From positions 1-64,000 of the forward strand of contig JAIOPP010000029.1 of the NCBI GenBank assembly GCA_021413845.1: a DNA stretch of 64,000 nucleotides. The letters run 5' to 3'. Positions 46,299 through 59,621 of this stretch are shown piece by piece. How positions within the stretch are numbered: position 1 is the stretch's first letter; each line of letters opens with the position of its first letter. A model generated the notes under the pieces. It did not search any database and had not been told where the DNA came from. It was given only the letters and a program-made list of their open reading frames with translations. A program made the position numbers and the translations under genes. Source of the stretch: Planctomycetia bacterium (lineage in GTDB: Bacteria; Planctomycetota; Planctomycetia; Pirellulales; PNKZ01).

Positions 46299-46922
46299 TC
46301 ATTCGGCGCAGTCGCCGGCTTGCGTGATCAGCCACTTGCGCGCGTGAATCAGAAATTGCACGACGACGCGCGTTCCGGATTTCAGTTTCTTGCCCGTAGG
46401 CAACAACCAGTCGTAAGCGACGATGTCGAGATCGGTATCGCTAAACGATCCGGTCTCGCTCATCTGCCAGACACTCACCGTCGCGCTGCTGTTGGATTCG
46501 ATGTCTTCGTCAAGCAGCCCGATGTGCCATTGGAACGCGTCGATGGGAACATAGCGTCCTGCTCCGGGATGAAAGAAGCAGAGCCGTCGTTCTCCTGCGA
46601 GGTAGGTACAGGCCTGCGCATCGCTGAGCGACTTGGTGCCGCTTTCCAACAAGCTCCACTTGTCTTCTTCCTCTTCAGGCTTGTATCGCAGATGTTTGGC
46701 GCTTTTGTCTTTGTCGAACGATTCGATGTTTTCATCCAGTTCCATCAGCTCCCAGCGGGGCTGTGTCGCGAGCGAGATCTGGATGCCTGCCGGCGAGCGG
46801 TGCGCTTCCAACGGGAAACTCGTAGCGATGCGTCGCAACATCTGCACGGTCTCGACCAGCGCGTTGAACGACTCCGTCGTGACCCGCTCGCCGGGCTGCA
46901 GGCGTCGAATATCGGAAAGCAT
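46299..46922 (-). CDS. Hypothetical phage-cluster protein
   Basis: Family not recognised for this 207-residue soluble protein. The N-terminal 45 residues form a helical segment (LNPGERVTTESFN-like start LQPGERVTTESFNALVETVQ), and the rest is beta-rich with acidic patches. It lies 3 bp after the preceding gene's stop in the same operon. Position after the tail genes suggests a distal tail or host-contact protein, by location only. Confidence 0.6.
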   Translation of the reverse strand: MLSDIRRLQPGERVTTESFNALVETVQMLRRIATSFPLEAHRSPAGIQISLATQPRWELMELDENIESFDKDKSAKHLRYKPEEEEDKWSLLESGTKSLSDAQACTYLAGERRLCFFHPGAGRYVPIDAFQWHIGLLDEDIESNSSATVSVWQMSETGSFSDTDLDIVAYDWLLPTGKKLKSGTRVVVQFLIHARKWLITQAGDCAE

Positions 46923-46925
46923 GGG

Positions 46926-47786
46926 CTACTCGAATTGAAAAAGATCTTGAAAATCCGCTGCTCCGTACGGCGCTCCCCCATCCGCATCTTGAATCGCAAC
47001 CCAGTGTTCCCCCTCGGCCGCTTGTTCTTTATAAAAATAGTTCCAGCCCACCTTGTCGCCGCCTGAGCGTTCTTTGGTTTGCTCGGAGAAGTAGTAGTCA
47101 AGCCGCCAGACGCCTCCTTCTTTGAGCATTTGAAATTCACGGACGGCTTTGACTCCCATGAACAGCACGGTGCCTACCGGTGAGCCGAGAAAGGGGCTCG
47201 CATTCACCTTGCCGCGCAGAGCGCGAATCGCCGACCACGGCGGCGCAGGAACTCGCAGCCAAGAAAGTTGCACGCTCCCCGTCGGAATCAAGACTCCGGG
47301 ATTCACATCATCGGGTACCGGTGGATCGTCTTCGCTCGACCATCGCCACACACGGCCCGGCACATGCTGGTATTCGGCTCCTAGCTCGCTTCGATAGACG
47401 AGATAGGTGCCATTGGGTACGCGCGGAAGGTTCTGCAGGCTGTAGCCTTCGCCATCGAACTGTGTCTTGTAAACGGCCGTAACCTTCGCGCCGCTGCGGT
47501 AAGCGTTCGTATCGGTTTGCAAAGAGAACGCCGTTTGCGTGTCGGGAGAATCGGGATCGAAGGGATCGACCGTGATCTCCGCGACGAGGAGATTCTTGAA
47601 GCCGGGAAAAGGGATCGGTTGCACGAACCGCGATGTGCCGCCGATTTCGCCGTAAGTTCCCAGCAGCATTTGTGCAAATGCCTGCCAATCGGACCAGTCG
47701 ACTCGAAACGAGCGAACGGCAGTAGCGCCTTGTTGCGTGATCGCGATGTGCGGCGAGCCGGCGAGTTCTTCATAGACAACCGTCAT
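46926..47786 (-). CDS. Probable phage tail-associated protein
   Basis: This 286-residue beta-rich protein has no membrane segment or signal. It reads FRVDWSDWQAFAQMLLGTYG near the start and LSWLRVPAPPWSAIRALRG near the middle, with an aromatic-rich C-terminus. It lies right after the tail chaperone pair, where siphophages usually have a tape-measure gene; its length and composition are not those of a tape measure (no long helical or coiled region). A distal tail role is a guess. Confidence 0.6.
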   Translation of the reverse strand: MTVVYEELAGSPHIAITQQGATAVRSFRVDWSDWQAFAQMLLGTYGEIGGTSRFVQPIPFPGFKNLLVAEITVDPFDPDSPDTQTAFSLQTDTNAYRSGAKVTAVYKTQFDGEGYSLQNLPRVPNGTYLVYRSELGAEYQHVPGRVWRWSSEDDPPVPDDVNPGVLIPTGSVQLSWLRVPAPPWSAIRALRGKVNASPFLGSPVGTVLFMGVKAVREFQMLKEGGVWRLDYYFSEQTKERSGGDKVGWNYFYKEQAAEGEHWVAIQDADGGAPYGAADFQDLFQFE

Positions 47787-47857
47787 CGACCGTTTCCTAT
47801 TTCGATTAAAAGTGACAAGGACTTCGATCTCGTGCTTTCACCGATTCGGCCTGCGCT

Positions 47858-48307
47858 CTACTCGCTCAATGAAACGCGGCTCGCAGACGTTGCCATCGAT
47901 TGTCGAAGCATTCGCAATTCTTCATGAATTTTCTTAAGCCAATCGGATCCCGGAATCATCGAGCTTTCGGCAGCGTGTTCTCTATCGATGCTGGTTGGCT
48001 GTTCACGCAGTCGGTCGCTCGGCTTCGTCGCCACGATCGCGACCAATCTTTCCCAATCATTCGGCTCGTCTCGGCAACTTATTGCGCTGCTACTCATTTT
48101 GAGTTCTCGATCCACTTCAGCATTACGGCGGTCTCGCGCCGCACCGGCGATCTGTATTGCAATCTCCGGCGAAGCGACAATGCTCGACGGCCGACGATTC
48201 CGAAACTCTAAGAACGTGAGTACCTCGTCGATCGTGAGCTCGAAAATCTCCGCAGGTGTCCAGCCGTAATCGCTGCTCAATCGGTGGCATAAGGCTCCCC
48301 AATCCAT
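47858..48307 (-). CDS. Probable tail assembly chaperone, second of pair
   Basis: The 149-residue protein begins MDWGALCHRLSSDYGWTPAEIFELT and continues IDEVLTFLEF. This pattern resembles the downstream (T-type) tail assembly chaperone of siphophages. Its start overlaps the preceding gene by 31 bp in the -1 frame relation typical of G/GT pairs. I found no canonical slippery heptamer in the overlap, so independent initiation at the ATG (48305-48307) is as likely as frameshifting. The C-terminal half is polar. Confidence 0.6.
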   Translation of the reverse strand: MDWGALCHRLSSDYGWTPAEIFELTIDEVLTFLEFRNRRPSSIVASPEIAIQIAGAARDRRNAEVDRELKMSSSAISCRDEPNDWERLVAIVATKPSDRLREQPTSIDREHAAESSMIPGSDWLKKIHEELRMLRQSMATSASRVSLSE

Positions 48308-48825
48308 TCGGGCTCCACCGGAACCTGTGGCCGGCTTTCGCGGTCGTGGGCCGAAGCACATGGCATCGCGCTTCGGCCCTGAACGTTTCCCAAGTCGAGT
48401 CCCTCTCGCAACCGCATCCCCGTCGCCGCTTCGATCATGCGTAAGAGTTCGCAGCGCTCCGATCCCTCGGCTTCGTAAACTTTGCGCCGGCATCGTTCCG
48501 CCGCAATCAGCGAATGTTCACCGCGTAGACTCAACTCCAGCGCAACGCTTAGTCCTTCGTTTCCCAACAACCAACGGCGCAACTCTTCGACAGTCGGTGC
48601 GACGGCTTGCGATGCTTTTTCGAACGCAAGTTCGAGGAGATGGCGTTGTAATGTTTCCGGCAAGCCGTCAAGGTGAGCTCGAGCTACGACCAGCGGATAG
48701 GGCTTCATCGCCGCGAAACGCCGCTCCAGCTCGATGTAGTCGCGCAAGCTGAAGCGCGAACAACGATGCTCGTGGCCGTCGATCTCGATCGTCATCGTCA
48801 TCGTGATTCGTGTCGAACGGTTCAT
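48277..48825 (-). CDS. Probable tail assembly chaperone, first of pair
   Basis: The 182-residue protein lies between the tail tube gene and the second chaperone candidate, where the G-type chaperone is found in HK97-like phages. It is mixed alpha/beta (TIEIDGHEHRCSRFSLRDYIELERRF) with a helical middle. The ATG at 48823-48825 follows AAGGGA. Assignment rests mainly on position and on the -1 overlap with the next gene. Confidence 0.6.
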   Translation of the reverse strand: MNRSTRITMTMTIEIDGHEHRCSRFSLRDYIELERRFAAMKPYPLVVARAHLDGLPETLQRHLLELAFEKASQAVAPTVEELRRWLLGNEGLSVALELSLRGEHSLIAAERCRRKVYEAEGSERCELLRMIEAATGMRLREGLDLGNVQGRSAMPCASAHDRESRPQVPVEPEWIGEPYATD

Positions 48826-48910
48826 CGCAGTTCCCTTATCACAGTTCCCCTTGTCGCAGCTCGTCGTCGCAGCTCCTCATCGTTGTTTCGAGAGCGCCTA
48901 TGCGAAGAGC

Positions 48911-49297
48911 TCAGCTATAGGTCGGCTTCGTCCAAGCGCCGTCGATGGAGAACTCGGCGATCCCTCCCAAAATGTCCCCTCGGTCGATATCGACCTCCCA
49001 TTGCAGCGCGTCGATCACGGCCGGCACGCTGTAATGTCGCACGTCATCGAGATACAGCAGCAGAGTCACGGCCTGGCCCTCGTTAAGCCGATTTGTAATC
49101 GGATCGTCGACGTCGAGCTTGAAGGCAATCGTTCCGCTGCCGTCTTTCACTCCCGCCACGCGACGTCGAAAGCCGGCCGTCGAAGAACTGGCGTAGGCGA
49201 CATTGTTGGAAGTCGTACGCAAAGTCCATTTGGTTACGTCGGCGATCGTCGCCACGCCGATCATCACCTTGCCGTCTTTACCGCTCATTACCGACAT
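48911..49297 (-). CDS. Phage major tail tube protein
   Basis: The 128-residue product reads SGKDGKVMIGVATIADVTKW, then SSTAGFRRRVAGVKDGSGTIAFKLDVDDP and a C-terminal beta-rich part. The size, beta-barrel character and Gly-rich start fit tail-tube proteins of siphophages. The ATG has AGAGGAGA upstream. Position between the completion/closure genes and the chaperones supports the call. Confidence 0.7.
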   Translation of the reverse strand: MSVMSGKDGKVMIGVATIADVTKWTLRTTSNNVAYASSSTAGFRRRVAGVKDGSGTIAFKLDVDDPITNRLNEGQAVTLLLYLDDVRHYSVPAVIDALQWEVDIDRGDILGGIAEFSIDGAWTKPTYS

Positions 49298-49879: not shown

Positions 49880-50272
49880 CTAAGATCGACAAAGCGTAAC
49901 GTCGTAATGAAGTTCCCGGCGAACAGTCCCTTTTGAATCCGATTTCCACACCTCTTCGCCGCGGCGCATCGCGACCACTCGCCCCTCGCCGGCATCGAAG
50001 TCGGCCGAGTCGAATCGATCGGCGATCGCCGCGGCGATCGTGGTTGCAGAGCCGTAACTCGACATTTCCGCTACGAATACGATTTCTACGACGTCCGCGG
50101 ACAAGCCGCTCGACGCACGTAGCAGCGGTTTATTCTTACGCCGCTCGACGACCACGTATGGCCGCTTCGTATCGGCGGGCACGAAGCTCGTATACACGCG
50201 CTCGAGCGGCACCGATGTCGTCAGCGCGACATCGCTTTCCCAGCGTTGTTGAATCGCCTCTTCGAGCGTCAT
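49880..50272 (-). CDS. Phage tail completion/terminator-like protein
   Basis: The 130-residue protein begins MTLEEAIQQRWESDVALTTSVPLERVY, the pattern of DUF3168/HK97 gp10-type tail-terminator proteins, and continues with a beta-rich core. Its ATG overlaps the previous gene's stop (ATGA, 50269-50272), so it is coupled to the head-closure gene. Such proteins cap the tail tube at the neck. Confidence 0.65.
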   Translation of the reverse strand: MTLEEAIQQRWESDVALTTSVPLERVYTSFVPADTKRPYVVVERRKNKPLLRASSGLSADVVEIVFVAEMSSYGSATTIAAAIADRFDSADFDAGEGRVVAMRRGEEVWKSDSKGTVRRELHYDVTLCRS

Positions 50273-50907
50273 GGCACCAGCTCCAAAAGTAAGATCGTTC
50301 CACGATCCAAACGCTCCGCATCGTCGACTCCGCGAATCTCGTACAGCGCATCGTCGTGACGAATCCGCATGTCGGCGACGAACTCGATCGCATCGGCAAG
50401 AAAACAGCGATGCGTCGTTCGCATCGTCGGAGGTGCGGCTTGATCGTCTCGGCGTTGTGCCGCCGGTTGGATTCGTGCGGCAAGTCCACGACGGACTTCG
50501 ATCCAATTCGCAACCGGCACGCCCGACGCGGTCTTCGTCCAGCTTGCTCGTAGAATCGAGACGCGATCATTGAGCTCGGCGGCTACCTCCCACGCTCGCG
50601 CGGTACATCGCCAGCGTGAACCGAGCGTTTCGTGATTCGCTTCGAGGATCGTCCACGTTCGACCTTCCCCGTCCGTGATCGTCGATCCCAACACCGGACA
50701 AGCGGGCACCTCGGAAGTCGGGAAGTGCCAGCGAACATCCCCTGCTAAGTATTTTCCGCGCGAGGCCTCGATCTCTCGCAAAGTCACGGCTCGATGGAGT
50801 CCGGCCGTTGTTTGCTCTCCCGATCTAGGCCTCGGCTCACGGATCACGACGCTCTCCGCCCCGTCAAACACGGCGAAATCGTTGCTTAAGTCCAAGCTCG
50901 AACTCAT
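50269..50907 (-). CDS. Phage head closure protein with extra N-terminal domain
   Basis: The 212-residue protein has a C-terminal half (DRVSILRASWTKTASG, ADMRIRHDDALYEIRGVDD) resembling head-closure/head-tail connectors of HK97/SPP1 type. The N-terminal half (PVLGSTITDGEGRTWTILEA) has a similar strand pattern, so it may be a duplicated connector-like domain; single-domain members are near 110 residues. The ATG follows GAGGAGG. It joins capsid to tail. Confidence 0.65.
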   Translation of the reverse strand: MSSSLDLSNDFAVFDGAESVVIREPRPRSGEQTTAGLHRAVTLREIEASRGKYLAGDVRWHFPTSEVPACPVLGSTITDGEGRTWTILEANHETLGSRWRCTARAWEVAAELNDRVSILRASWTKTASGVPVANWIEVRRGLAARIQPAAQRRDDQAAPPTMRTTHRCFLADAIEFVADMRIRHDDALYEIRGVDDAERLDRGTILLLELVP

Positions 50908-51264: not shown

Positions 51265-52419
51265 TTATTCGTCGAAGCTCTTCACGACGCAGCGTGGGTT
51301 CAGCACCGCAGCCGCACCACGTTCGCTGGCTTTGAATCGAACGACGATGTCGTTGTTGAATTCCGCATCGCTGTTCGGAGCCGATTGCGTGACGGTGATC
51401 GGCCAGTTCTCCATGTAGGCGAAGGCCTTCTTGAAATCGCCGAGGAACCACCACTTCTTGGCATCTTCCGCCGCGGTGCCCGCCGCAATAATCCGGCGAT
51501 ACGCCAAGCGGCTATCGGCGACGCGGTACTTGCTCAGCGGATTGGCGACGCGCGTGGTCGTGGCCTCGGTGCTGTAATCGATCTCGGCTGCGTTAAATAC
51601 GCGATGTGCCGCATGCCGATATGCCGGCATCACGAGCACCGTGTCGGCGGTTACGAGGACCGGTTCGCCCGTATGTGGATCGAGAATGTCCGCAAAGAGG
51701 TTTTCGGCGGCATCGACGTTGCGCCAATCGACGAGCTCGTTCGCCGATTTGACGTTCACCCAAGATCCGGAGGTGAGATAGGTCGAATAGTTCGTGCCGC
51801 GCCATTTGTAGTTGTTCGTTGCACCGATCAAGATATCGATGAGCCGCTTCTCCTTGTTCAACCCGAGAATCTCGCCGACTTCCGCCGCACGACTCAACAC
51901 CAAGTTCGTCCGATCGAAGAAGATCGCTTCGCGCGTCACCGGCACGATCAGGCCGTGCTTCGTCGTCGAGGGAGTTTCGATATAGTCTTCGCCGAAGCCG
52001 ACGTTCGGATAAGGCATGCCCGGACGAATCGCATCGGCGCCATCGGCCGGAACCGTCACGCCGGGAATCTTCTCCCCATCGAGGCGCGTCGGAATCGTAT
52101 CGACGAGCTTCGAGACGACGAAGGCTTCTTGCGTATAGGCCTCCATGATCTTCGAGTAGACGACTTGCCCTGCGATATTGAGAAAGGCGGTAACGTCGAC
52201 TCCTTGGCCCGATTCAAGAATGTTCACTCCGCCCGAGGCGCGAGGGTCGAGCAACCGAACCCATTCATGACCGTCGGGCACCAGTCCTTCGGCCAAGTCG
52301 CGAAGACTAAAATCCTCGGGCCGCAGTTTCTTCTCGCGCAACGCTTCGGATAGATGCTCGACCGTCTTTTGCGCTCCATCGAGTTCGTAGCGCCGCTTCA
52401 ATTCACGGTATTTGATCAT
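51265..52419 (-). CDS. Phage major capsid protein
   Basis: The 384-residue protein follows the decoration protein and precedes the connector genes, the position of a major capsid protein. Sequence features fit: a helical N-terminal arm (to residue 50), then a mixed alpha/beta body with ETPSTTKHGLIVPVTREAIFFDRT and, later, VLVMPAYRHAAHRVFNA. No protease cleavage site was assigned. Strength rests on size, position and internal pattern. Confidence 0.8.
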   Translation of the reverse strand: MIKYRELKRRYELDGAQKTVEHLSEALREKKLRPEDFSLRDLAEGLVPDGHEWVRLLDPRASGGVNILESGQGVDVTAFLNIAGQVVYSKIMEAYTQEAFVVSKLVDTIPTRLDGEKIPGVTVPADGADAIRPGMPYPNVGFGEDYIETPSTTKHGLIVPVTREAIFFDRTNLVLSRAAEVGEILGLNKEKRLIDILIGATNNYKWRGTNYSTYLTSGSWVNVKSANELVDWRNVDAAENLFADILDPHTGEPVLVTADTVLVMPAYRHAAHRVFNAAEIDYSTEATTTRVANPLSKYRVADSRLAYRRIIAAGTAAEDAKKWWFLGDFKKAFAYMENWPITVTQSAPNSDAEFNNDIVVRFKASERGAAAVLNPRCVVKSFDE

Positions 52420-52476: not shown

Positions 52477-52956
52477 CTACGACGTGATCGCCGATTGCAC
52501 GCCGCCGTACATCACGGTGCTGACGATATCCACCAGCACTTTTACGTCGGCCGGATTGACGCGTCGCGCACAACGCCCGATCGCCAAATGGGCTCCCGCT
52601 ACGCCGTCGATACGTTGATTTTCCAAAACGGTTCCGGAAGCGGCTTCGTCGACGCCGAGCAACGCCCCCACTTCGCGTGTGCCGGACGGAGTGACGAATT
52701 CGAAGACGCCGGTCGTCGCTACGCGAATCGGATCGGTGTCGCCCGATCGCGACCGTTGCATCGCCACGCCGGCGAACTTCGTGTGAAACAACGCTTGGTT
52801 CGCGCTTTCGGTACTTTGGTCGGCCTGCGATGCGGCCGGCTTCGCATCGTCGGTGTCGAGATACACCAAGTCGCCGATCTCGATCACGGTCGCCGAGTCG
52901 ACCGGAAGAACCACGGGATTCGTTTCGCCGTACCGCCATCGCATGACATCTGCCAT
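52477..52956 (-). CDS. Phage capsid decoration protein
   Basis: The 159-residue protein has a beta-rich pattern with IEIGDLVYLDTDD, FAGVAMQRSRSGDTDPIRVATTG and GALLGVDEAASGTVL, resembling DUF2190-type or decoration proteins encoded beside major capsid genes. The ATG follows GGAG. It lies 57 bp before the capsid gene in the same operon. Confidence 0.7.
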   Translation of the reverse strand: MADVMRWRYGETNPVVLPVDSATVIEIGDLVYLDTDDAKPAASQADQSTESANQALFHTKFAGVAMQRSRSGDTDPIRVATTGVFEFVTPSGTREVGALLGVDEAASGTVLENQRIDGVAGAHLAIGRCARRVNPADVKVLVDIVSTVMYGGVQSAITS

Positions 52957-53025: not shown

Positions 53026-53811
53026 TTAAGTCTTGTGCGAAATCGCCTTCACGAACGAGTCGGCGTCTTCGATCGGTCGATGTCGTCCGTGAGTGCTTTG
53101 ATCGACGGAATGTTGATCGCGAGCGCGAATCCTCGGTTGAGCAGCGTCGGCTTCTTCGCGAACCGGCGACGTACGCAGATTGGCGATCTCCGCTTTAAGC
53201 CGCAGAATCTCCGCTCGCTCCTCGGCAACGTTTTGCTCAAGCAAATCCGGTCGCGCTGCCCGGAGTTGTTCGAGCGTTACGCGAGTCCAGTCGGCTTCAC
53301 GAGCCTGAACCGCATCGATCTCCGCAACTTGCTCGTAGAGACCATGCGTCGAGGCGGGATCGGCCACGAGGTCGACGCTGACGACACGTGTGATCGCTTC
53401 GACGACCACTTGTTCGTCACGTCGCGACGTACGGGCCATGACGTTGTGCGAGAGCCCGACGTTCTCCGGAGCATGCCGAGCGTCCCATTCCAACTGCCCG
53501 GCCATGCCGTGTCGCGGGTTGAAATGTAAGTCGCCATATAAGCCGGAGTCACCGACTACGCTCACGTTGCGGATCAATCCGATCCGGTCTTGATAGTCGC
53601 GTGGGCCGAGCGGGCTTCCTTTCGGGTGATTCACATTCACCTTAGCCCCTTCGTACAGCTCGCGAGCTCGAACCAACGTATCGTGAGGATACGACCGCCC
53701 GTTACGCGACTCAGACCCGAGGATTTTCACCCCGCGAATAACGCCTGCTTCGCGATCGACGGACAGTGCCGCACCTCGACTATCCGCATACTCCAACAAA
53801 GTCTCTTCCAT
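53026..53811 (-). CDS. Probable prohead protease with C-terminal scaffold-like segment
   Basis: The 261-residue protein has GVKILGSESRNGRSYPHDTL, VNVNHPKG (His62), DRIGLIRNVSV, GLSHNVMA (Ser121) and SVDLVADPAS, a pattern resembling T4-type prohead proteases, which use a His/Ser pair. A charged helical stretch at residues 190-225 (AEERAEILRLKAEIANLR) may act as scaffold. It is first in the capsid module, right after a terminator hairpin. The ATG at 53809-53811 follows AAAGGAAA. Confidence 0.65.
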   Translation of the reverse strand: MEETLLEYADSRGAALSVDREAGVIRGVKILGSESRNGRSYPHDTLVRARELYEGAKVNVNHPKGSPLGPRDYQDRIGLIRNVSVVGDSGLYGDLHFNPRHGMAGQLEWDARHAPENVGLSHNVMARTSRRDEQVVVEAITRVVSVDLVADPASTHGLYEQVAEIDAVQAREADWTRVTLEQLRAARPDLLEQNVAEERAEILRLKAEIANLRTSPVREEADAAQPRIRARDQHSVDQSTHGRHRPIEDADSFVKAISHKT

Positions 53812-55729: not shown

Positions 55730-57340
55730 TCATGCCGGTTTCGATTCGTGATCTACCAACGATTCTTGCGCCAGCCGCAAGGCCATCTCCAGCGCGTCGG
55801 GCCCATCGTCGTGGTCACCACAAGGAAAATCGCGAAGCTGATCGACGAGCAATCGTGTGCCTGAGGAGTTACTGCGAAATGCGAGACGTCGTTGTGCGAG
55901 CAAGGGAGATAAGCGACGAATCCGTACCCTTTTCGGCGCGGTATTCGAAATGCTCCAAGGTGCGAAGTCGTATCGTCCTTGTCGTTGCGCCTCGCGCACC
56001 AATTCGTCTCCCAACAATTCCTGAAAATGATTCGCTTCGACTCCGAATGCGTCGGGCCCGAACTGCGCATGCCACGTGCAACTATCGGCGACCATCTGTG
56101 GTATCGGGCGGCGGGCGAGATCGGCCTCGACGAAGACGCGGCCCATCGGATCGATGCCTAGCATGACGATCGCGGAGTAATCGCCATGGCGGGCGTCGGC
56201 CCCTTTGCTGGGGTCGAGCGCCATCGTCCTGACGATAAGGTTCTCGGGCCAATCGTCGAACCAGAAATCGTCGTGGAGGAAATAATCTTCCGGCCACTCG
56301 CAAAGTTCAGGATTGATCGGCGACCCCTGCTTTTCACGCTCAAACGCCGTCTTGCCGCTTTCGATGCGCATGCACATCAGCGCGTAGAGATCTTCTTCCT
56401 CCGCCCACAGCAACTCGGCCCCGGCATCCATTGCCGTGCGGTGTGCTTCGTAAAAACATTGGGCCTTGCCGCGAGCGTCGGCATCGCCGATCTCGGAATA
56501 AAGTTTTTCCCAGCGATCCCATAGGTCCATCGCATCGGGCCAGCGCAACACCGCCGGGAAGATTTGCGAGATCCAGCCCGGCGTGCGATGCAGCTGCATT
56601 GCCAACGCATCGCGATGCAGAGCGGTCGCGAGATTCAGCACGTTGGTTCTGCGAGTGCCGGCCTTGAGTAATGTGCCGTGAAACCAACGAGTCGACAGTT
56701 CTCTCTGTCGTGCCGACTCGATGTGCGAGTCGTTCTGAAGATCGTCGCAGATAATGAGCGTCGGGCGATGTTCGCCGCGCCGTCGCCCTCGCATACGCAC
56801 GCCCGTGCCGAACGCTTCGACGACCGTGCCGTTGCGTAGCTCGATGAAATTAGAACGCCATATCGGGCCACGTCCGCAAGCTTGGGAGTAGTCCGAGGCG
56901 AGTTTCGAATTGTCGGTCAGTTCTTTTTTGACGTTCTCCAAATGATTAGCCGCTTGGTTTCGAGTGTCGGAGACGATCCAAACATAAGGCTCGCGCTCCG
57001 TGACGATCGAACGCAACACCCACGCCAGCGTGCCGACCGTTGATTTCGCTCCGCCGCGGGGGCCGATCACATTCAACTTCACGCCGCGCGTCCGCTCGGC
57101 TTCCGCCAAGCGTGTCGTCAAGGTTCGATGCATGATCGACGGCTCGCGTGTGAAGTAGTGCGGCAAGTAGCGACGTCCCCAAGCCAAGAGATCGAGCGTC
57201 GTCGAATCTTCGACGGCCATATCGTCGGGCTTCAACAGATCGACGGCGCAAGCAATGACGCCGAGCAACTTCGATGCGCCGGCCAACTCGAGTCCGGCTA
57301 GATCGAGCGTCGTGCTTTCTAAATGACGCCGCCTGGTCAT
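55730..57340 (-). CDS. Phage terminase large subunit
   Basis: The 536-residue protein has an ATPase with Walker A GPRGGAKST at 93-101 and Walker B LIICDDLQND near 195. A C-terminal RNase H-like nuclease has acidic motifs MALDPSKGADA and DDGPDALEMALRL. It powers DNA packaging into proheads. Its start overlaps the preceding gene by 4 bp (ATGA), giving translational coupling with the small subunit. The sequence is close to other planctomycete prophage terminases in layout. Confidence 0.9.
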   Translation of the reverse strand: MTRRRHLESTTLDLAGLELAGASKLLGVIACAVDLLKPDDMAVEDSTTLDLLAWGRRYLPHYFTREPSIMHRTLTTRLAEAERTRGVKLNVIGPRGGAKSTVGTLAWVLRSIVTEREPYVWIVSDTRNQAANHLENVKKELTDNSKLASDYSQACGRGPIWRSNFIELRNGTVVEAFGTGVRMRGRRRGEHRPTLIICDDLQNDSHIESARQRELSTRWFHGTLLKAGTRRTNVLNLATALHRDALAMQLHRTPGWISQIFPAVLRWPDAMDLWDRWEKLYSEIGDADARGKAQCFYEAHRTAMDAGAELLWAEEEDLYALMCMRIESGKTAFEREKQGSPINPELCEWPEDYFLHDDFWFDDWPENLIVRTMALDPSKGADARHGDYSAIVMLGIDPMGRVFVEADLARRPIPQMVADSCTWHAQFGPDAFGVEANHFQELLGDELVREAQRQGRYDFAPWSISNTAPKRVRIRRLSPLLAQRRLAFRSNSSGTRLLVDQLRDFPCGDHDDGPDALEMALRLAQESLVDHESKPA

Positions 57341-57846
57341 CGACCTTGTTCTCCGGCGGCATCGCCGCTCAGCGACTCCGTCAGCCGTAGCAAGTGCGCG
57401 CCGACCTTTAGTCGATCGTTTCGATTACTGATGCCGCGGCACAGTATTTCGGCAAACTGATTCAACACGATTCCGACCTGCTCGCGGGTCATCGTTGCGG
57501 CGCGGCGTGCCGCGTAGCGATCTGGATAACGCCGTTCCAGCAACCAAGCAGCCGCCTTCCAGCCGTTCTTTTCGCCCGCCGCTTCCTGAATCTTTCGAAC
57601 TAACGTGAGCTCTCGTTCCGCTTCGGCTTTTCGTAATGCATCGGCAAACGCGGGATCGCGCCGCGCAGTGGTAGCGATCGCGTTCATCGAACAGCCGACA
57701 TAAGCGGCCGCGCGACTCCGCATACACCCGATCCTGACGATCGCGCAAATCTCCTCCTTCTTTCGGGCATCTAATTTGGGCGAGATCCTGCTTGCCCGTT
57801 TCGTGGGAACCGGAAGCGGCGTGTCGTCGTCGGAGCGAGTGTTCAT
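57337..57846 (-). CDS. Phage terminase small subunit-like
   Basis: The 169-residue protein has an N-terminal helix-turn-helix (GCMRSRAAAYVGCSMNAIAT, about residues 40-60) followed by helices with EAERELTLVRKIQEAAGE and KAAAWLLERRYPDRYAAR. This is the pattern of small terminases/phage HTH proteins that recognise packaging DNA. It is coupled by ATGA overlaps to genes on both sides. Confidence 0.75.
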   Translation of the reverse strand: MNTRSDDDTPLPVPTKRASRISPKLDARKKEEICAIVRIGCMRSRAAAYVGCSMNAIATTARRDPAFADALRKAEAERELTLVRKIQEAAGEKNGWKAAAWLLERRYPDRYAARRAATMTREQVGIVLNQFAEILCRGISNRNDRLKVGAHLLRLTESLSGDAAGEQGR

Positions 57847-58973
57847 AGCATGGTCCTTTCTTCCGACAGCAACTCAAACGACGCTACGGCGCGACCGGCG
57901 GCACCACGATAGTTGCTCGTCGCACGATCGTTTCTGCGAGTTCCGCAGCGCACGATCCGATTCAAGCGCCAGCGCGGCGACCGGCGGCAATGCGTCAAGA
58001 GTGAGGGATGGGCCGTCGTGATGCCGAATCGTTTGCCGTCGGCCAAATAGAGATCGCCGACCGCTTCGGCAAGCCGAGTGCCGATCCCCAGGCCTTGATA
58101 GTCGGGCAGGGTTACCAGTCGAGTGATTCGCCAACGACCGCGCGTCGCAAACATCGGCAGCACGGCACACAACGCCGTCGGCACTCCGTTCCAAAAAGCC
58201 GCGTAGCATCGAGCACCCCAACTCAGTCGGCCGTTCAAATAGTGATGACGCGCAAACAATCGCCAAGCTTCCAAGGGACAGCGTCGGACTTCGAGACGGA
58301 TCGCCGGTCGCCGAAGACGCCTCCGATGGAGCGTGCCCGTTGCCATGTCGAGCGTCCAATCCGGTTCGAGCCAAGGCTCGACGTCGTAGTGACACGTCAC
58401 GGCAATGAATCGACAAGCGACCTGACTCGATCGAATCGCTTTGACGATGGCGGCCGAGCCGAATTGGGCCGCATTGCGATCGACCAGGCTCGTGAATTCG
58501 TCGAACACTACCAGCGGGCGACTCTTCGAATCTTCGGAGATGTTCGAGTCTGTGGAGGAATGACGACCCACGGCCAAAGCGCGTGCCAAGTCGCAACGAA
58601 ACTTCTCGCCGCCGCTGAGGACGTCGTACGGCTTGATCCAAGAGGGAGGCGATCCGAATCCGACGGCGGTCAACAGGCCGGTGGCTTGCTTGATCGGCAA
58701 TGCATCGAAAAAGTCGATCACCGCTCGGTCGCGGGGCCAATCGCCGTTTTTATAGAGTTCGGCTGGGAATCGATGGCGCGCGATCGTGCTCTTGCCGGAG
58801 CCCGACGGTCCTACGATGAGACCGATGTCCCACTCCTCGCCTTCATCTGGTAGTTCGACGTCGAAGCGTTCCGAAAGCTTTTCTGCGAGCGGCACGTCGA
58901 ACATCCCGGCGACTTGCTCGACGCGAAACGACCGGCGTATCGGGCAACTGACATCTACGGCAACTCGCACCAT
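57843..58973 (-). CDS. ABC-type ATPase fused to GNAT acyltransferase
   Basis: The 376-residue protein has an ABC-ATPase domain with Walker A GPSGSGKST (55-63), signature LSGGEKFR (119-126), Walker B LVVFDEFTS (154-162) and an H-loop TCHYD. It is followed by a GNAT domain with RHHYLNGRLSWGARCYAA and an acyl-CoA loop TLPDYQGLGIGTRLAEA. There are no membrane helices, so it is not a transporter. Related ABC-GNAT fusions occur in phage and bacterial genomes; a role in DNA modification or packaging control is a hypothesis. It is coupled to the small terminase gene (ATGA) and lies after the ParB-like gene. Confidence 0.85.
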   Translation of the reverse strand: MVRVAVDVSCPIRRSFRVEQVAGMFDVPLAEKLSERFDVELPDEGEEWDIGLIVGPSGSGKSTIARHRFPAELYKNGDWPRDRAVIDFFDALPIKQATGLLTAVGFGSPPSWIKPYDVLSGGEKFRCDLARALAVGRHSSTDSNISEDSKSRPLVVFDEFTSLVDRNAAQFGSAAIVKAIRSSQVACRFIAVTCHYDVEPWLEPDWTLDMATGTLHRRRLRRPAIRLEVRRCPLEAWRLFARHHYLNGRLSWGARCYAAFWNGVPTALCAVLPMFATRGRWRITRLVTLPDYQGLGIGTRLAEAVGDLYLADGKRFGITTAHPSLLTHCRRSPRWRLNRIVRCGTRRNDRATSNYRGAAGRAVASFELLSEERTML

Positions 58974-59030
58974 GACGCGTCTCCTTAATGATCTAAATCC
59001 ATCCGGCCGACACGAAGCTTCGCGAACGAA

Positions 59031-59621
59031 TTACAACGTCAGGACACGGCACTTACGACCTTCTTGTGAAAGTCGTTCGTAAACCAAGCGTTGTTCCGTC
59101 TCATCTGCGCATTCGACCAACACCTGGAATGAATCACGCAGCTCGAGCGACGTCCGTGCCGTAACCTCGGTCGTCGCGTTACGATCGGGGGAATCGAGTT
59201 CCAAGCGTAGCGATTGAGATTCCCTAAGAACTTCGTCGAGCATGTCGGAGACGGCTTCGTTTCGGATCTCGATCGTCGAGAGAATGTCGCGCAGCACGTC
59301 AGCATCGGTCTCGGCCATCGCCGCCAAGGGATCATGAACCGCGAGCAAAAGTTCCGCCTCGGCCGCGGAAAGATCGACGACGAGCACAGGTACTTCGGTA
59401 TCAGGGAGCGTCGAGACGCGCAAATGGCCGTCGATCAACTCCAGTCGCCCGTCTTCGCACTCGCGTGCTATGAGAGCTCCCGCGAATCCGATCTCGTCGA
59501 GCACGCCGCGCAAGGCCGCTTGTTGTGCGTCGGGATGCTTGCGCCAGTTGCGCGGGTTCGAGCGTAGTTCGCTCGCGCGGACTCGCCGCAATTCACGCAC
59601 TCGGTCTCGGATCGGTGGCAT
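59031..59621 (-). CDS. ParB-like nuclease-domain protein
   Basis: The 196-residue protein has an N-terminal ParB/Srx-type fold: LRSNPRNWRKHPDAQQAALR, GFAGALIARE, LELIDGHLRVSTLPD and VPVLVVDLS. The C-terminal half is helical and acidic without the ParB HTH, so plasmid partition is unlikely; phage-borne relatives often accompany DNA-modification genes. The ATG at 59619-59621 has GAGG upstream; a TTG 15 bp earlier is possible. It lies 57 bp before the ABC-GNAT gene. Confidence 0.8.
   Translation of the reverse strand: MPPIRDRVRELRRVRASELRSNPRNWRKHPDAQQAALRGVLDEIGFAGALIARECEDGRLELIDGHLRVSTLPDTEVPVLVVDLSAAEAELLLAVHDPLAAMAETDADVLRDILSTIEIRNEAVSDMLDEVLRESQSLRLELDSPDRNATTEVTARTSLELRDSFQVLVECADETEQRLVYERLSQEGRKCRVLTL

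Follow-up and report, generated by a model that had tools for sequence, protein, structure and literature searches.

What does a soluble ABC ATPase fused to a GNAT acyltransferase accomplish when the gene encoding it lies between a ParB-like gene and the terminase genes of a planctomycete? The locus is located in a window of 64,000 nucleotides (assembly GCA_021413845.1, contig JAIOPP010000029.1, positions 1 to 64,000 of the forward strand), and a preliminary description had proposed that the module might acylate either phage DNA bases or a packaging protein, as a self-protection or packaging-licensing system not clearly described before. The arrangement reported there—the fusion, the preceding ParB-like gene, and the ATGA overlap with the small terminase—was present exactly as described, the position 57843 being the end of the ABC-GNAT stop codon and 59621 the first base of the ParB-like start codon. 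The interpretation, in contrast, was supported only in part, since the evidence favors a DNA-modification role analogous to that of phage Mu Mom, but neither the packaging-licensing alternative nor the claim that the system had not been described. The features of the locus are collected in the following table.

Coordinates of the features of the locus, with the evidence for each one (order relatives are genomes of the same planctomycete order)
Position	Strand	Feature	Evidence
59031..59621	-	ParB-like protein (196 aa): N-terminal ParB/Srx-like core plus C-terminal tail domain	phrog_620 (E=2e-10), phrog_723 (E=1e-9) and phrog_498 matches; homologues with PF02195 in relatives; upstream of ABC-GNAT in 14 of 16 order relatives
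59034..59135	-	C-terminal ~35-aa tail domain (CT, residues ~163-196; pattern strand-helix-strand inferred from sequence), constant partner of ABC-GNAT	phrog_28816 match; free-standing homologue E=1e-21; upstream of ABC-GNAT in nearly all loci, absent at 62 Mom loci
57843..58973	-	ABC-ATPase/GNAT fusion (376 aa)	phrog_11143, E=2e-93 over residues 8-373
58329..58973	-	soluble ABC ATPase domain (residues ~1-215)	Walker A, LSGGE, Walker B and H195 conserved in 160 relatives; weak SMC_N and ABC_tran matches
57846..58328	-	GNAT domain (residues ~216-376)	PF00583 E=1e-6; HHY, R285, QGxG and W335 conserved
57337..57846	-	terminase small subunit (TerS), ATGA overlap with ABC-GNAT	phrog_4102 E=1e-18
55730..57340	-	terminase large subunit (TerL)	phrog_38 E=3e-69, PF17289
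54236..55648	-	portal protein	phrog_21 E=7e-32
53026..53811	-	conserved head-cluster protein in the protease/scaffold position, function inferred from position only	phrog_29592, unknown function; conserved in 15 of 16 relatives
52477..52956	-	putative head decoration protein	phrog_122 E=2e-4, weak; conserved in 15 of 16
51265..52419	-	putative major capsid protein	phrog_133 E=6e-9, matched in the C-terminal part of that profile; 46 of 57 order relatives, about 56-82% identity in most
50269..50907	-	head closure-like connector	phrog_25 E=2e-4
49880..50272	-	tail terminator-like connector	phrog_347 E=3e-3, weak
46299..49297	-	remaining genes of the cluster, partly conserved in the order	no family match; no tape measure-sized frame

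To ascertain whether the fusion was intact, we searched the protein against family profiles and aligned it with its relatives. The protein carries a Walker A motif GPSGSGKST, the signature LSGGE, a Walker B motif VVFDE, and the H-loop residue H195, followed by a GNAT domain whose match to PF00583 scored 29.4 bits against a cut-off of 20.7. Across 160 nonredundant full-length relatives the core residues of the ABC motifs are about 95-100% invariant, as are the GNAT residues H244-Y245, R285, Q293-G294-x-G296, and W335, with Q293, G294, and G296, which belong to the Q/RxxGxG acetyl-CoA motif, being 98-100% conserved. The preceding protein is ParB-like according to the PHROG profiles, although the Pfam ParB_N profile (PF02195) did not reach it, and the ParB-like gene is separated from the ABC-GNAT gene by 57 bases, so that only the ABC-GNAT/TerS junction overlaps. 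No transmembrane partner or export context of the kind expected for an ABC transporter was found: the neighbors are ParB/CT and terminase or Com, and the protein itself has no membrane-domain match. A sequence search of solved structures gave only a P-loop fragment, whereas the PADLOC hits to mad3/mad8 covered only parts of the ABC domain and were taken as generic. The genome holds a single copy of the fusion.

The fusion is a full-length member of phrog_11143, which family is annotated as of unknown function. A tblastn search found 64-71 phage records, all below 60% identity, in phages of hosts as different as Gordonia, Leptospira, Streptococcus, Lactococcus, Porphyromonas, Aeromonas, and Tenacibaculum; scans of viral contigs gave hundreds of relatives; and a genome scan gave planctomycetes, a few archaea, and one Hymenobacter. 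In streptococcal, lactococcal, and archaeal members the ABC and GNAT parts are separate, usually adjoining or overlapping genes. Data from the literature indicate that the role we consider here had been predicted already: Iyer et al. (2013), as restated in PMC7824862, identified a GNAT coupled with an ABC ATPase predicted to carry out an uncharacterized acyl modification of a DNA base, and the carrier named there, the Tenacibaculum phage pT24, is matched by our protein at E=1e-45. Therefore, the core idea of the preliminary description is an independent rediscovery. The archaeal MK0520-type ABC-acetyltransferase proteins are likewise among the closest known systems. Literature searches for experimental work on this family found none, and the paper on the Leptospira phages LE3 and LE4 lists the genes but contains no modification or restriction data. 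What we add to that prediction is the exchange with Mom in the com-mom slot, the CT partner domain, a linked formyltransferase, and the order-wide cluster in planctomycetes, although parts of these may already have been included in the 2013 study.

By sequence, the GNAT domain is not a Mom: no PF25680 hit was obtained at E<=1, and a profile-profile comparison with Mom (hhalign) gave a probability of 0.15%. The genomic position of the relatives, for its part, connects the two. Ten Mu-like phages of P. gingivalis share tail genes and right ends (83-92% identity; about 84-92% through the tail genes and again over the last ~90-130 bases), and between these same boundaries five carry a 42-aa ORF, ABC-GNAT, and a formyltransferase, four carry an "acetyltransferase" of 289 aa in the Mom position—confirmed as Mom for 012a by PF25680 at E=6e-56, the others having the same length and annotation—and one carries neither. 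In the Pseudomonas phage Komp_PAO1_1 the order is Com (PF10122, E=9e-21), a 49-aa ORF, ABC-GNAT, and formyltransferase, with overlapping frames. In a survey of 206 fetched ABC-GNAT loci (fetched loci of all kinds are numbered below with an L) Com, the translational activator of mom, was found upstream in 71, all of the Mu-like type, and PF10122 confirmed Com in five of five loci tested (E 9e-21 to 3e-5; Komp_PAO1_1 and four further ones). In the 50 nonredundant loci with Com and CT, the CT frame overlaps the end of com by a median of 79 bases measured stop to stop, much as in Mu itself, where com spans 1269-1457 and mom starts at 1378 in locus L053. None of the 206 ABC-GNAT loci holds Mom and none of 62 fetched Mom loci holds ABC-GNAT; phage PX29, however, carries both about 17 kb apart, so that the two are not simply interchangeable. 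No Com was found at the window locus, whose cluster is not Mu-like.

The survey for consistent ParB or terminase neighbors, which check the preliminary description had proposed, indicated that ParB-type proteins are the constant neighbors outside the Mu-like phages, but also that the obligatory partner is not the ParB fold itself but its tail. The last ~35 residues of the window ParB (FQVLVECADETEQRLVYERLSQEGRKCRVLTL) form the conserved tail CT, which is seen in the ParB proteins of all kinds of carriers. A model built from ParB tails found the free-standing 42-aa and 49-aa ORFs of the Mu-like phages (E=2e-6 and 6e-10), the latter being also recognized by PHROGs as phrog_28816 (E=1e-21). The 42-aa ORF (L047:4876-5004) is annotated in P. 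gingivalis phages as an anti-CRISPR candidate, which annotation we reject because that ORF is the CT domain. Of the surveyed loci, 109 have the ParB core and CT fused, 69 have Com and a free CT, 14 have CT alone, and only a few have neither; overall, CT is at 193 of 206 ABC-GNAT loci and at 0 of 62 Mom loci. A contig, L002, has a 67-aa ORF that keeps the start and CT but lacks the ParB core. A formyltransferase (phrog_9240, PF00551; L057:6119-6736 and L047:6131-6604), linked to ABC-GNAT in Mu-like phages only, follows in 25 of 36 nonredundant Com-plus-CT loci with room, in none of 83 ParB-plus-CT loci with adequate upstream sequence, and in no Mom locus; that this enzyme might further process the acyl group, as a possible second step of the modification, is conjecture.

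ParB cores of the same kind are elsewhere fused to a DNA methyltransferase (phrog_498), and in the Microbacterium phage Appa a ParB-like gene (L055:5469-6002) directly precedes and overlaps a Mom gene, where the ParB ends in a CPSC zinc-knuckle-like tail in place of CT. An alignment of ParB proteins was too diverse to be used for scanning, whereas a scan with the Appa ParB indicated that this ParB type also occurs with other ParB-like genes and with a terminase-region gene.

From these results we propose, with a probability of roughly 0.68, that the pair is a DNA-modification module that works like Mom but with different parts. The analysis itself demonstrates the intact catalytic motifs of both domains, the operon structure, the constancy of the CT partner, the slot exchange with Mom, and selection (dN/dS roughly 0.1-0.3 against three relatives, with dS near saturation). 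All the rest is inferred: that the ABC domains dimerize on DNA with ATP; that CT, here carried by a ParB-like DNA-binding adaptor, docks on them; that the GNAT domain transfers an acyl group from an acyl-CoA to an amino group of a base; and that phage or particle DNA thereby escapes restriction. In this view the ParB core would add DNA binding or control where Com is absent, and the natural substrate in the window would be the DNA packaged or delivered by the gene cluster that the module heads, or else the host chromosome. The conservation of both active sites together with a dN well below dS shows that the activity is selected. Against this proposal, we found no nucleoside data for any carrier, the GNAT domain has no detectable sequence relation to Mom, GNATs often acylate proteins, and genes that share a slot can be unrelated morons. 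The strong comparative evidence for a counterpart of Mom nevertheless concerns a large family annotated as of unknown function or as an iron transporter; cultured phages—Komp_PAO1_1, LE3/LE4, and the Gordonia phage NHagos—make the decade-old prediction directly testable, and CT provides a defined partner to co-express.

Other explanations seem unlikely to us, though each one has some support. That the GNAT acylates the terminase or another packaging protein, with ParB and ABC as a DNA-end or pac-site complex, would agree with the overlap with TerS in the window and with the presence of TerL within reach downstream in 30 of 55 nonredundant ParB-type loci with enough flank, as well as in LE3, NHagos, Pmp13, SL25, P335, and Javan141; but the module is not adjacent to terminase genes in the Mu-like phages (where it is at the right end, after the tail genes), Jace, pT24, PX29, Enterococcus 9184, and others, the terminases and phage types differ while the module stays constant, and the module is exchanged for Mom. 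Terminase linkage is thus common but not obligatory, and packaging licensing is disfavored. An acetylation of proteins for host takeover or counter-defense—for example, of RNA polymerase or a restriction enzyme, with the ABC domain powering the remodeling of the target—is suggested by the existence of phage GNATs that acetylate host proteins (Rac, in PMC7824862) and by the moron-like character of the cassette with its varied positions, yet the constant DNA-associated ParB/CT partner and the Com control are unlike known protein acetyltransferases, and the replacement by Mom is recurrent. Least likely of all is a DNA-segregation or SMC-like DNA-bridging device with a vestigial GNAT domain, to which the ParB-like partner and the weak SMC_N match might point: the GNAT catalytic motifs are among the most invariant residues, the ParB core is dispensable in the Mu-like phages while the GNAT domain stays, and no ParA partner was recorded in the annotated neighborhoods examined.

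Regarding the genomic setting, the genes from 59.6 down to about 46.3 kb form one minus-strand cluster of which the pair is the first transcription unit, and beyond which lie host genes: RND-type pumps, by sequence, at 34-42 kb, and a subtilase (PF00082) and an unnamed conserved gene at 60-64 kb. We initially considered the neighborhood to be an ordinary prophage, which reading was abandoned upon examining its distribution. Of 57 genomes of the same order, that of the window included, 43 have ABC-GNAT and 46 each have the capsid-like protein and TerL, mostly with one full copy each, whereas in 199 genomes drawn across the phylum only 10 have the capsid protein, and, apart from the window's own genome and one other member of the order (62%), all of those are at 40% identity or less. 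Sixteen fetched regions (L298-L313) keep the gene order. Among the genomes of the order (numbered with a G), the host genes immediately upstream, the subtilase and its neighbor, are shared by G000, G003, G005, G007, and G042, and genes 5-17 kb upstream—a molybdopterin-binding protein, a MerR/TPR protein, and another—are shared in order and strand, in differing subsets, by G000, G003, G007, G027, and G051, which represent four families. The distances of ABC-GNAT, portal, and capsid correlate with the RpoB distances (Spearman 0.64, 0.60, and 0.55; permutation p<=0.0025), but those of TerL less so (0.24, p=0.10), and the trees recover genus and one family clade while disagreeing at deeper nodes.

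A vertically inherited, GTA-like or domesticated head cluster with occasional exchange fits best with these data, although a recurrently acquired, order-specific defective prophage is not excluded. As in gene transfer agents of the RcGTA type, the head-gene cluster is compact, mostly single-copy, near-universal in one order, composed of intact frames under purifying selection, and situated in the same host neighborhood in several families, with no integrase or replication gene recognized; in contrast with them, no tape measure, lysis, or tail-fiber genes were recognizable in the fetched span—no tape measure-sized frame being seen downstream of the capsid genes in the regions listed—and the agreement with the host tree is only partial. 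The formation of particles and gene transfer would be inferred by analogy alone. The presence of the module at the head of this apparently domesticated cluster suggests a GTA-like system outside the classical GTA lineages and raises the question of whether such particles protect their cargo by DNA modification. A more speculative possibility, which we regard as unlikely though compatible with the evidence, is that the order maintains a GTA-like particle whose leading operon marks the packaged host DNA with a new acyl-base modification, so that the delivered DNA survives restriction in the recipient, with CT being the dedicated subunit that couples an ABC clamp to a DNA acyltransferase.

A few loci depart from the general pattern. 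Large or lytic phages (pT24, PX29, P12024S, and 9184; L042, L043, L044, and L052) carry ABC-GNAT without a recognizable ParB core or CT nearby. A ParB protein with CT at L286:2875-3507 has no detected ABC-GNAT in the ~3 kb downstream, which locus was the only such exception seen. Finally, the SSU5-like phage Cyrano and the Rhizobium phage RHEph10 (L049 and L051) contain two ParB-like genes, an ABC-only gene, and a separate divergent GNAT-like gene (phrog_886 in Cyrano), thus presenting a split, divergent version of the module without CT.
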